This document shows, one piece after another, positions 53,787 to 56,375 of a DNA stretch of 64,000 nt. The DNA comes from Heyndrickxia acidiproducens DSM 23148. Lineage in GTDB: Bacteria > Bacillota > Bacilli > Bacillales > Bacillaceae_C. The notes beneath the pieces are model-generated. The model was not told where the DNA came from. It searched no databases and saw nothing but the letters and a program-made list of their open reading frames with translations. The DNA lies in NCBI RefSeq assembly GCF_000374345.1, contig NZ_KB893985.1, forward strand, positions 1 to 64,000. Direction: 5' to 3'. Both the position numbers and the translations under genes were made by a program. Every line of letters starts with the position of its first letter. Positions within the stretch are counted from its first letter, which is position 1.

Positions 53787-54491
53787 ATGATAACAGAAAT
53801 TGACATGATCCGGAATAATGAAGCGCTTCTGGAAAAACTTTTATCCCTCTCCGGCCAGGAATTTTGGATAAAAAAAGGCCAATATTTATTCCAGGAAGGG
53901 ATGGAAGCGGACGGAATCCATATGATTATACACGGGAAAATTCAAGTCGGAAAAATAGCTTCCGACGGGCGGGAACTTGCCTTCAGCATTTGCAAAGAAA
54001 ATGATCTATTAGGTGAAGATGCGCTTTTTTCCTATTCCGGCACTTACCATGTAACAGCAAAAGCACTTGATGACAGCCGCATCTTCTTTATCCATAAAAA
54101 GACGCTGGAACAGGGGCTTTTAAAAGAACCAGATTTCATGATGGGCTTGCTAAAGCGGCTCAGTGACCAGTACAGGAAAAGCCAGACAAAATTCCGCGAT
54201 TTAATTTTATATGGAAAAAAAGGCGCATTATACTCAACTTTAATCCGCCTTGCCAATACATTCGGAAAAAAAGTTGCAGACGGCATCCAGATTGATTTTC
54301 AATTAACCAACCAGGAGCTCGCCAATTTTTGCGGGACTTCCCGTGAAAGTGTCAACCGGATGCTCAGCGAATTAAAACGCGATCAACTGATTTCCCTGAG
54401 AAATAAGCAAATCGTTATTCACCAATTGGATGAATTGAAGAAAGAAATCAACTGTGAAAACTGCCCGGCACTGTATTGCCAAATCAATTAA
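53787..54491 (+). CDS. fnr: Crp/Fnr-family oxygen regulator Fnr (Bacillus type)
   Basis: A 234-residue regulator: cyclic-nucleotide-binding-like N-terminal domain (about 15-125), dimer helix, and C-terminal helix-turn-helix (LTNQELANFCGTSRESVNRM). The last residues carry Cys223-x2-Cys226-x4-Cys231. In B. subtilis Fnr three cysteines with just this spacing at the C-terminus plus an Asp hold the [4Fe-4S] cluster that senses oxygen; Asp138 here is near the expected place. This differs from the N-terminal cysteines of E. coli FNR. It should activate anaerobic genes (narK, nitrate reductase), none of which is in the window. Confidence 0.88.
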   Translation: MITEIDMIRNNEALLEKLLSLSGQEFWIKKGQYLFQEGMEADGIHMIIHGKIQVGKIASDGRELAFSICKENDLLGEDALFSYSGTYHVTAKALDDSRIFFIHKKTLEQGLLKEPDFMMGLLKRLSDQYRKSQTKFRDLILYGKKGALYSTLIRLANTFGKKVADGIQIDFQLTNQELANFCGTSRESVNRMLSELKRDQLISLRNKQIVIHQLDELKKEINCENCPALYCQIN

Positions 54492-54504
54492 AAAAGCAGG
54501 AGAA

Positions 54505-54532
54505 GGCCCCATTAAGCAATGGGCCTTTTTTT
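54505..54532 (+). terminator. Terminator of fnr
   Basis: GGCCCCATT (54505-54513) and AATGGGCC (54518-54525) with a run of seven T. Confidence 0.9.
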
Positions 54533-54605
54533 CATCATGAAAACGCCCCGGCATTCAAAAACCTTAGGATAATATCCGCTTATATGTTAGAATAGTGGAT
54601 GCTGA

Positions 54606-54634
54606 TTGTAAAAAACAAGGAATTACGCTATACT
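54606..54634 (+). promoter_or_regulatory. Sigma-A promoter of the mifM-yidC2 unit
   Basis: TTGTAA (54606-54611), 17-bp spacer, TATACT (54629-54634). It stands 32 bp before the small membrane ORF at 54667, so the ORF is first in the transcript and yidC2 second. Confidence 0.7.
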
Positions 54635-54666
54635 TTGACTGATTACTTTAAGGTGAGTGAAAATCA

Positions 54667-54957
54667 TTGACTCAAAATTTGCTTGATTTTATGAATGACC
54701 CTGCCATTTATATGCTTTCTTTTCTCGTTTTAACGGCTGGTTTAATGTATCTCGGCCGCTTAATCGGGAGACCTAATGCCTATTTTGCAGCTAAACCGGC
54801 GGCGTTACTGATAGACCGCTCGTTTCAGGACACGACGGTTTTAAATTGCGGCAGCCATTCAGTGATTATTTGGATTTTAAGCTGTGTCAGACTGAAAACA
54901 TATCCTCCTGAAGATCCCGATGCTGTTCACCATTCTCCACTTACAGCACATGCATAG
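54667..54957 (+). CDS. mifM: MifM-like regulatory nascent chain (membrane-insertion sensor leader)
   Basis: A 96-residue protein whose TTG start lies 9 bp after AAGGTGAG. One transmembrane helix (about 13-30, AIYMLSFLVLTAGLMYLG) is followed by a soluble tail. The C-terminal part reads W69-I70-x4-R75-L76-K77-T78, then Y79-P80-P81-E82-D83-P84-D85-A86. The MifM arrest region of B. subtilis, as I recall it, has WI-x4-RMNS and then an acidic DEEDA cluster at the same distances, an ungapped match. MifM (95 residues) stalls the ribosome unless inserted by SpoIIIJ and so induces YidC2. Gene position, size, topology and the downstream hairpin all agree. Arrest itself is inferred; the sequence is clearly diverged. 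Confidence 0.72.
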   Translation: MTQNLLDFMNDPAIYMLSFLVLTAGLMYLGRLIGRPNAYFAAKPAALLIDRSFQDTTVLNCGSHSVIIWILSCVRLKTYPPEDPDAVHHSPLTAHA

Positions 54958-54980
54958 AGAACATCATTTAAGGAGGATAT
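54900..54980 (+). promoter_or_regulatory. Stem that sequesters the yidC2 ribosome binding site
   Basis: ATATCCTCCT (54900-54909), within the Lys77-to-Pro81 region codons of the leader, is a perfect 10-bp complement of AGGAGGATAT (54971-54980), the yidC2 ribosome binding site. GATG (54919-54922) / CATC (54962-54965) and TTC/GAA extend it inside. A ribosome stalled with codons 82-86 in its P site would cover the left arm and free the site. Confidence 0.8.
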
Positions 54981-54983
54981 TTC

Positions 54984-55766
54984 ATGAAAAGATTTTTTAA
55001 TTTATCATTTTTAATTGTGGGTCTGCTTTTCGTACTAAGCGCGTGCTCCAGTTCAGCAGGCAGTGCAAATAACGATGGATTTCTATACCATTATTTTGTA
55101 AGCCCGTTTGCCGTTGTCATCAAGGCGACAGCCCAGATGTGCAACGGCGATTACGGCATTGCAATTGTCATCTTGACACTTGTTATCCGTCTGATCCTGA
55201 TGCCGTTGACTTTGCATACGTATAAAAACCAGCAGATCATGAAAGAAAAAATGGACAAGTTGAAACCTGAAATGAACGAATTGCAGAAAAAGATCAAAGC
55301 AGCGAAAACAAAAGAGGACCAAGCGAAATTGCAACAGCAAATGATGGGTTTGTACCAAAAGCACGGGGTCAATCCTTTAAACATGGGCTGTCTGCCAATT
55401 CTGATCCAAATGCCGATATTAATGGGCTTTTACTATGCAATACGCGGATCAAAAGAAATTGCCACCCATTCATTTTTATGGTTTAACCTCGGCCATGCCG
55501 ACCTGCCCATGGCGATCCTTGCAGGTATCATTTATTTGGTCCAAGCCCAGATTTCATTGGTCGGGCTTCCGGAAGAACAGAAAAAACAAATGAAATACAT
55601 GACATTAATGTCACCGATCATGATTTTATTCGTTTCCTTTTCCGCCCCTGCAGTACTGCCGCTTTACTGGACGGTCGGCGGACTGTTCCTCATCGGACAG
55701 ACGCTGCTGGCGAAAAAGTTTTATCAAACCCATCCGCCTAAAGAAAATACAGAATCAAATTCTTAA
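54984..55766 (+). CDS. yidC2: Membrane protein insertase YidC2 (YidC/Oxa1 family lipoprotein)
   Basis: A 260-residue insertase that places proteins in the membrane alone or with Sec. The signal peptide ends in a lipobox (LSAC, Cys21), then the family core: first core helix with the conserved groove arginine in TLVIRLILMPLTLHTY, a cytosolic coiled-coil hairpin (KPEMNELQKKIKAAKTKEDQ), GVNPLNMGCLPILIQMPILM and three more helices, ending in a short charged tail. Size and lipoprotein form match the Gram-positive YidC1/YidC2 pair. The leader upstream argues for the inducible copy (YidC2/YqjG); the other copy should lie near the origin, outside this window. Confidence 0.92.
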   Translation: MKRFFNLSFLIVGLLFVLSACSSSAGSANNDGFLYHYFVSPFAVVIKATAQMCNGDYGIAIVILTLVIRLILMPLTLHTYKNQQIMKEKMDKLKPEMNELQKKIKAAKTKEDQAKLQQQMMGLYQKHGVNPLNMGCLPILIQMPILMGFYYAIRGSKEIATHSFLWFNLGHADLPMAILAGIIYLVQAQISLVGLPEEQKKQMKYMTLMSPIMILFVSFSAPAVLPLYWTVGGLFLIGQTLLAKKFYQTHPPKENTESNS

Positions 55767-55775
55767 TGTATGCAT

Positions 55776-55810
55776 AAAAACAGAACGGGCAAGATGCCCG
55801 TTCTGTTTTT
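55776..55810. terminator. Bidirectional terminator between yidC2 and rok
   Basis: AAAAACAGAACGGGC (55776-55790) pairs with GCCCGTTCTGTTTTT (55796-55810) perfectly, with T runs on both strands. Confidence 0.92.
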
Positions 55811-56375
55811 ATGCTTTTTCCGGTTCAAGATGCGCCGTTTCTGCAGATAGCTCCTCCTGTACCGGTTTATTTTCAGCTGCTTCATCCTGTACAGGGTTCA
55901 GGAATTGGTACAGGCCCCGATTAGGCTTACAAATTCTGGGATCCACCTTTTCGACTGTTTTCATGAATGAAGTCATATTTGCAATTTTAAACCCGGTCCT
56001 TTCTTCGATGATCCGCTGCAAGTCAACGCCTCTGATCGGTTCTGCTTTTTCCTGCAGGATATGGATAGCAACTTCCCTCATTTTACTGGATTTGCTCCGC
56101 CTTGAAGGCCGCGATTTCCGTAACTTCCGGTCCCTTTGGAATATCTGTCCCGGGAATTCCTCCAAGGCAGCGGAAGAAAACGATTGGTAATTTAAAAATT
56201 CCTTTGAAAAATCATCTGATATATCTTTTAATTGTACCGCTTCTTTTTCATCCAATTCTCTTAATCTCTTGAAAATAAATTCCCTTTCTTTTCTGAACTC
56301 TTGCAGTACACTCATTTCGGCACTCTCAAGCTGGTTCAGCCTGATTTTCAGCGCCATTCTTTCATTAATGGTCAA
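55809..56375 (-). CDS. rok: Rok-family nucleoid-associated silencer
   Basis: A 188-residue homologue of B. subtilis Rok, which represses comK and silences AT-rich acquired DNA. The N-terminal coiled coil (MALKIRLNQLESAEMSVLQE) mediates oligomerisation, a basic linker (KLRKSRPSRRSKSSK) follows, and the C-terminal winged-helix-like DNA-binding domain (about 97-160) shows KMREVAIHILQEKAEPIRGV, IANMTSFMKTVEKVDP and KPNRGLYQFL, aligning with the Rok C-terminus. A Glu-rich tail of about 25 residues follows. The start is a TTG at 56375 behind GAGGGG. The nearby 14-bp palindrome may serve autoregulation. Confidence 0.82.
   Translation of the reverse strand: MTINERMALKIRLNQLESAEMSVLQEFRKEREFIFKRLRELDEKEAVQLKDISDDFSKEFLNYQSFSSAALEEFPGQIFQRDRKLRKSRPSRRSKSSKMREVAIHILQEKAEPIRGVDLQRIIEERTGFKIANMTSFMKTVEKVDPRICKPNRGLYQFLNPVQDEAAENKPVQEELSAETAHLEPEKA

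Follow-up and report, generated by a model that had tools for sequence, protein, structure and literature searches.

A MifM-type leader of yidC2 in Heyndrickxia acidiproducens with its putative masking arm before the predicted arrest codon

MifM of Bacillus subtilis, the leader of yidC2 (yqjG), is a sensor that stalls the ribosome translating it when the insertion of membrane proteins is impaired, and in this way turns on YidC2 as a reserve insertase; it was reportedly described by Chiba and colleagues in 2009. According to the accessible text of PMC4423224, its critical residues are R69, I70, W73, I74, M80, N81 and DEED at 86-89, its ribosome stalls at D89, A90, G91 and S92, and species specificity is set by M90 of uL22. 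The motif published for MifM, in the accessible part of PMC7897499, is RIXXWIXXXXXMNXXXXDEED. A 2024 survey of 30,175 genomes assigned 631 raw sequences to a MifM cluster, or 572 non-redundant sequences after filtering, and its accessible sections give a median distance of 54 from helix to arrest site (PMC10987492).

Within the window (the whole stretch of 64,000 nucleotides analyzed here, from a genome of 3.3 Mb), a 96-codon open reading frame with a TTG start (54667-54957) is followed by a gene for a lipoprotein YidC (54984-55766), just as the original prediction had described. The leader lies directly upstream of the secondary yidC and on the same strand, as is expected of a MifM. The features of the locus are as follows.

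53787-54491: open reading frame of a Crp/Fnr-like regulator (named by eye), flanking the leader-yidC2 pair on one side
54606-54634, + strand: promoter-like site TTGTAA-17-TATACT, a 9/12 match; its boxes recur in the genus
54650-54656, + strand: leader ribosome-binding site AAGGTGA, read from the sequence; the purine-rich stretch recurs in relatives
54667-54957, + strand: MifM-type arrest leader with TTG start, 96 codons
54706-54765, + strand: single membrane helix, codons 14-33, from hydropathy, with boundaries and topology set by eye
54871-54921, + strand: arrest region, spanning W69-D85 and placed from its alignment to B. subtilis MifM
54900-54909, + strand: anti-SD arm ATATCCTCCT, the last base of codon 78 plus Tyr79-Pro80-Pro81
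54919-54921, + strand: predicted first stall codon 85 (P site), aligned to B. subtilis D89
54971-54980, + strand: yidC2 ribosome-binding site AGGAGGATAT, predicted to be masked by the ATATCCTCCT arm
54984-55766, + strand: yidC2, YqjG-type lipoprotein insertase of 260 aa with lipobox LSAC, the regulated gene
55772-55814, + strand: intrinsic terminator-like hairpin, closing the two-gene operon

Both boxes of the promoter proposed upstream of the leader are present and recur, together with the TTG start, in all five genus sequences, but a scan found 4 promoter-like sites where 3.4 were expected by chance, so the count itself is not above chance. Relatives share the run of purines that precedes the TTG, although the SD-match rule was negative in three of them (L018, L019 and L021). 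The second YidC of the genome sits between rnpA-like and jag-like open reading frames (both named by eye), the usual place of SpoIIIJ. At the uL22 loop position that we take, from the loop sequence, to be equivalent to M90, the residue is M in the window genome and both H. coagulans (L111, L109, L110) and Q in the genomes assigned by matching contigs to Weizmannia acidilactici and H. ginsengihumi (L108, L112). Rfam returned nothing above the gathering score in 54480-55900, and no family in Pfam or NCBIfam matched the leader.

A search by YidC2 similarity found 108 loci, of which 80 were kept; at each, a script weighed the SD match, the start codon and the lipobox to choose where yidC begins. 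The nearest relatives of the window YidC2 are those of W. acidilactici (80% identity), H. coagulans (79%) and H. ginsengihumi (77-78%). Of the 80 loci, 71 have a leader before yidC, 64 identified by a leader rule and 7 that the rule missed. Ten loci failed the rule. Three of them have no leader, namely L022 and, in what by eye is an AraC-type context, L041 and L050; the other seven belong to the Cytobacillus group, and six more passed it but were AraC-type by eye and were removed. The alignment holds 64 leaders (63 distinct ones plus the window), one duplicate having been removed. Ten Bacillus loci of a single genus (L098-L107), which match the B. subtilis MifM sequence at 58-96%, are absent from this alignment and are referred to as B. 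subtilis-type; nine of them, with L105 left out, make up a separate MifM alignment. A further 25 loci of the window's family, several of which repeat species of the first set, comprise L114, which has no leader, and 24 that were examined.

Some of these loci depart from the common layout. Six of the Cytobacillus group (L036, L040, L046, L051, L056 and L073, one of them labelled Sporosarcina globispora) have a MifM-type frame with no ATG, GTG or TTG at the homologous start; where relatives have ATG after the GAGGTGA site, five have ATC and L036 has ATT, and these six leaders likely use a non-standard start codon. Annotation-based surveys may miss leaders of this sort. The seventh, L044, likewise has ATC at the homologous start, plus an in-frame ATG two codons earlier that touches the GAGGTGA site. 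Six Psychrobacillus loci and one of Kurthia (L029, L033, L037, L043, L050, L067 and L090) have an AraC-type gene, recognized by eye, upstream of yidC and no MifM-like leader, and Rummeliibacillus L041 has the end of a similar gene upstream and no MifM-like leader. In H. sporothermodurans DSM 10599 (L022) unrelated sequence occupies the place of the leader, which strain J6TS2 (L024) does have; the upstream sequence of L114 is the same as that of L022.

The original prediction read the leader as a diverged MifM. A W-I-x4-R-x-K-x4-acid-acid-x-acid block recurs in the 64 aligned leaders. Among these yidC-upstream reading frames the C-terminal block is kept, as had been anticipated: W69 is found in 43 of 64, R75 in 58 (R or K in 61) and K77 in 53 (K or R in 61), while residues 37-63 drift. 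Position 82 is D or E in 58 of 64 and position 85 in 56; at least two acids occur at 82-85 in 62 of 64 and at least three in 56 of 64. The acid counts are favored by the leader rule, which demanded an acidic pair after residue 65; the counts for W, R and K are less affected. R75, equivalent to R79 of B. subtilis MifM, is the arrest-region residue most often identical, and it is absent from the critical residues given in the accessible text of PMC4423224.

The link from this leader to MifM needs a profile, because a single-sequence search finds no match in the window's genus. The B. subtilis MifM sequence, used alone as query, hit nothing in the window genome at E ≤ 0.01; across 397 genomes of the order, 17 matched, ten of them from one genus at E < 1e-27 and the other seven weakly (0.0026-0.0099). 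When the window and seven more leaders of the Heyndrickxia type were withheld, the resulting profile recovered the window leader at E = 4e-6 and the ten B. subtilis-type MifM at 2e-6 to 0.016, against 0.36 for the best unrelated open reading frame in a background of 910. With the full 64-leader profile, all ten loci of the B. subtilis type came up, with E values of 3e-7 to 0.007, the best unrelated of the 910 frames scoring 0.48. Using hhalign, the 64 leaders aligned to the nine B. subtilis-type MifM over the C-terminal 29 columns with P = 5.4e-6 and a probability of 86%. Searched with a profile, the solved structures gave weak matches only (best 0.015, eS17), with no MifM chain among them. 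On the sequence comparisons, we identify the leader as an orthologue of B. subtilis MifM; the MifM type of the original prediction is borne out by the shared block and the profile link, and the separate proline code that it added is not.

At the columns of the MifM critical residues the window leader reads S, V, W, I, L, K and EDPD, and 3 of the 10 positions of the published motif are identical (W, I and the last D), so the exact motif is absent from it. In the 64 leaders the Met80-Asn81 columns are mostly [RK] and K. Judged by the alignment, Met80-Asn81 of B. subtilis is further from the family's [RK]K than the L-K of the window, and the published motif describes B. subtilis and not the wider family.

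The leader has one N-terminal membrane helix, in agreement with the original prediction (hydropathy maximum of 1.7 over 19 residues). With acidic residues before it and arginines after it, the helix is expected to be oriented N-out/C-in. From the helix at 14-33 to D85 there are 52 residues, in line with the spacing of ~50 in MifM. The leader precedes yidC2 in all five genus genomes, with 48-55% identity in the other four. Between the window and these four relatives pN is 0.23-0.31 and pS is 0.66-0.74; pN far below pS indicates constraint on the leader at the protein level. The constraint is uneven: in the same comparisons pN is 0.40-0.47 at residues 37-63 and 0.14-0.22 at residues 64-85, so that the middle drifts while both ends of the leader are held.

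The ribosome-binding site of yidC2, AGGAGGATAT, is perfectly complementary over 10 bases to ATATCCTCCT in codons 78-81, exactly as noticed at the outset, and only 33 of 2000 synonymous recodings of the window leader reach a 10-bp perfect helix. Folding of 54890-54990, which had been proposed as a check, gave -20 kcal/mol (z = -2.2; 2 of 200 shuffled sequences folded equally well), and the predicted probability that the site is paired is 0.85, consistent with a hairpin of the kind found with MifM. Pairing of the site exceeded that of synonymous recodings with p = 0.036 in the window and 0.010, 0.074 and 0.002 in L018, L019 and L021 (n = 1000 for each of these four clade members). Over the 64 loci, mean pairing is 0.91 against 0.68 in the recodings (150 for each locus outside the clade); the site lies above the synonymous mean in 62 of 64 and reaches p ≤ 0.05 in 35 of 64, related loci not being independent. 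The helix is kept in all four clade sequences, with a single C-G to U-G difference that goes with Pro81 versus Ser. No two-sided compensatory change was found among these four sequences, two of which are near-identical.

The original prediction recognized this complementarity and passed over its unusual place. With the arrest codon placed by alignment at the D85 column, the window arm ATATCCTCCT occupies -19 to -10 of the predicted stall codon, inside the sequence coding for the arrest region. The arm is ~10-20 nt before the arrest codon in the window and its three close relatives (L018, L019 and L021) and ~3-23 nt after it in 59 of the 64 loci and in all ten B. subtilis-type loci. The five loci with the arm before are thus the window, both H. 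coagulans, W. acidilactici and one distant MAG (L074). At L023 the longest single helix falls before the arrest codon (-19 to -14), and the ensemble pairing falls after it. Among the 24 further loci of the window's family the arm is after the arrest codon in 23 and has no clear side in one; L113 pairs weakly (0.38). In H. ginsengihumi, as in other genera, the arm follows the arrest codon; in the YidC2 tree this species forms one supported group (100/98) with the four clade members. The fewest label changes on that tree are two, one at L074 and one inside the genus; the single change inside the genus presumes that H. ginsengihumi branched first, and the tree leaves the order of the window and H. 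ginsengihumi open.

The distance from the arrest codon to the start of yidC is 134 nt at L086; in the remaining 63 of the 64 loci it falls within 52-70 nt (sd 4.3), being 65 nt in the window, and it is 52-55 nt in the ten B. subtilis-type loci. Measured from the leader stop codon, the yidC start ranges over -58 to +52 nt (sd 21.4), negative values marking stops inside yidC. Because the first distance is constant while the stop wanders, it is the position of arrest, and not of termination, that is held. At L075, L077, L093 and L095 the leader crosses the ribosome-binding site of yidC and has its stop 46-58 nt past the yidC start; owing to this overlap, a ribosome escaping arrest there would read across the yidC start. 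The L074 leader overlaps yidC by 11 nt, and the L044 frame is open far into yidC.

We consider it probable that the leader is a MifM orthologue serving as a YidC-monitoring substrate, and that the trailing half of the stalled ribosome covers the arm and frees the yidC2 site. The N-terminal helix would be inserted by YidC. Upon slow insertion, the C-terminal block would halt the ribosome that is making it, the P site then holding codon 85 or perhaps 86. The clade's arm at codons 78-81 would then lie just behind the stall codon, under the trailing half of the ribosome; in the other species examined the arm would be met from the front, by the leading half. The CCTCCT core of the window arm, at -15 to -10, would fall within the trailing half and be out again by codon 87-88. 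With the arm covered, the yidC2 site would be free and YidC2 would be made; once insertion pulls the chain, translation would resume, the arm would re-form and yidC2 would be switched off. Orthology, constraint, the position of the arm and pairing beyond coding need can be read in the sequences; what we infer is that the ribosome stalls, and at which codon, that its release depends on insertion, and that YidC2 is induced. A more specific reading is possible, though we lean somewhat against it: in the H. coagulans clade the arm may have jumped from the leading to the trailing side, so that the switch would read the first one or two stall positions only, as a sharper, position-gated sensor in which RNA pairing dictates TYPP/TYPS.

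A stalled ribosome covers roughly -15 to +15. When a ribosome with this footprint was masked in a folding model, the computed openness of the window site, 0.15 to start with, reached 0.30 for codon 85 and 0.50 for codon 86 but was back at 0.10-0.12 for codons 87-88. A footprint of -12 to +12 gave 0.35 at codon 85 and already 0.10 at codon 86, one of -18 to +15 gave 0.30, 0.37 and 0.51 at codons 85-87 and 0.10 at codon 88, and a slightly shorter stretch of the window gave 0.40 and 0.48 at codons 85-86. Within the clade, L019 opens also at codon 88 (paired 0.47). The sites of L052 and L061 open with the ribosome at the arrest codon or close to it, and are still open when it stands several codons further on; L020 behaves in the same way with two of three footprints and is shut at the arrest codon (0.03) with -12 to +12, and L047 opens only to ~0.4. 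Across the 64 loci, median pairing of the site falls from 0.99 to 0.58, 0.49, 0.50 and 0.50 with the ribosome at the four codons. The B. subtilis-type positive control, L098, reached 0.17-0.18 at the four known stall codons (0.03 when free) and opened strongly ~six codons later. The model allows RNA to pair across the ribosome, and for that reason it supports the direction of the change only; it weakly backs the opening and reproduces its positive control poorly.

The same modeling bears on a simpler account, in which this is an ordinary MifM switch, the arm position has no mechanistic meaning and the region would be held open by whichever ribosome has come close to the leader's end. A masked ribosome does open the window site somewhat over a span that begins ~ten codons short of the arrest codon and extends one codon beyond it, and the orthology and the constant arrest-to-start distance hold whatever the position of the arm. 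However, the arm follows the arrest codon in 59 of the 60 other aligned loci (L074 being the exception) and in 10 of 10 B. subtilis-type loci, and the probability of an alternative downstream arm is 0.00 in the four clade members; we regard this account as unlikely.

Translational coupling with no nascent-chain arrest, the leader being a small membrane protein whose translation merely opens the yidC2 site, would draw on the fact that any leader ribosome would disturb the hairpin. It does not explain why the C-terminal block is kept across genera while residues 37-63 drift with their higher pN, or why the arrest-to-start distance is held while the leader stop codon wanders, and we judge it very improbable. 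Least credible of all is a diverged arrest peptide with a Pro-Pro stalling code akin to RAPP stallers: PPEDPD is indeed present, and RAPP-like stallers lie upstream of yidC and secDF in other phyla according to the accessible text of PMC10987492, but Pro80-Pro81 occurs in the window alone of the 64 leaders, the three nearest relatives having Pro-Ser and reading YPSEDPD.

The RAPP-like code was accordingly rejected for this leader, which contains neither R-A-P-P nor a close variant; Pro84 occurs in 18 of 64. The ACATATCCTCCT of the window corresponds to ACATATCCTTCT (Thr-Tyr-Pro-Ser) in its three nearest relatives, and the one differing base keeps its pair with the yidC2 site, as U-G in the relatives and C-G in the window. 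The difference thus preserves the RNA pairing and not the prolines. Since Pro-Pro is found only in the window and the arm sits there, we prefer to see in Tyr-Pro-Pro the mark of RNA pairing and not a code for stalling.

Under the reading we prefer, a MifM orthologue whose arm would be covered by the trailing half of its ribosome, the locus suggests that an arrest-peptide switch can be rewired with its logic intact, since the spacing from arrest codon to yidC start stays the same as the masking arm and the stop codon shift. An RNA constraint would explain an odd stretch of the arrest peptide, and the window switch would offer a clean test case for how a downstream hairpin reads ribosome position. 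H. coagulans is used industrially and is non-pathogenic, which makes such a test practical. A literature search for coagulans, yidC and translation arrest, supplements being outside its scope, returned no title on the H. coagulans leader, and we found no discussion of arm placement in MifM homologues in the accessible sections of PMC10987492.

Compared with B. subtilis MifM, as described in the accessible parts of PMC4423224 and PMC6037786, the window leader likewise precedes yidC2, has ~95 codons and one N-terminal helix, and carries W-I followed by an acidic cluster, with a hairpin masking the yidC2 site. It differs in that R69, M80-N81 and the unbroken DEED are replaced by S, L-K and EDPD, in its TTG start, and in a masking arm that comes before, not after, the arrest codon. 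The MifM cluster of the survey has an acid-rich region at residues 75-95 of yidC upstream open reading frames (PMC10987492, accessible sections), and the window leader, with EDPD at 82-85, would probably fit the survey's MifM criteria. CliM of Clostridia shares the place upstream of yidC, the membrane helix, YidC-dependent release and a masked ribosome-binding site, whereas it has, according to its authors in the accessible text of PMC13183943, no sequence similarity to MifM and another arrest mechanism. ApcA, ApdA and ApdP, stallers of the RAPP type, are likewise arrest leaders of yidC2 or secDF2 (accessible text of PMC7897499 and PMC10987492); they carry RAPP or RAPG, neither of which is present in the window leader. 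Leaders of this kind are already known, and the arm position in the H. coagulans clade is plausibly a new variant of them.
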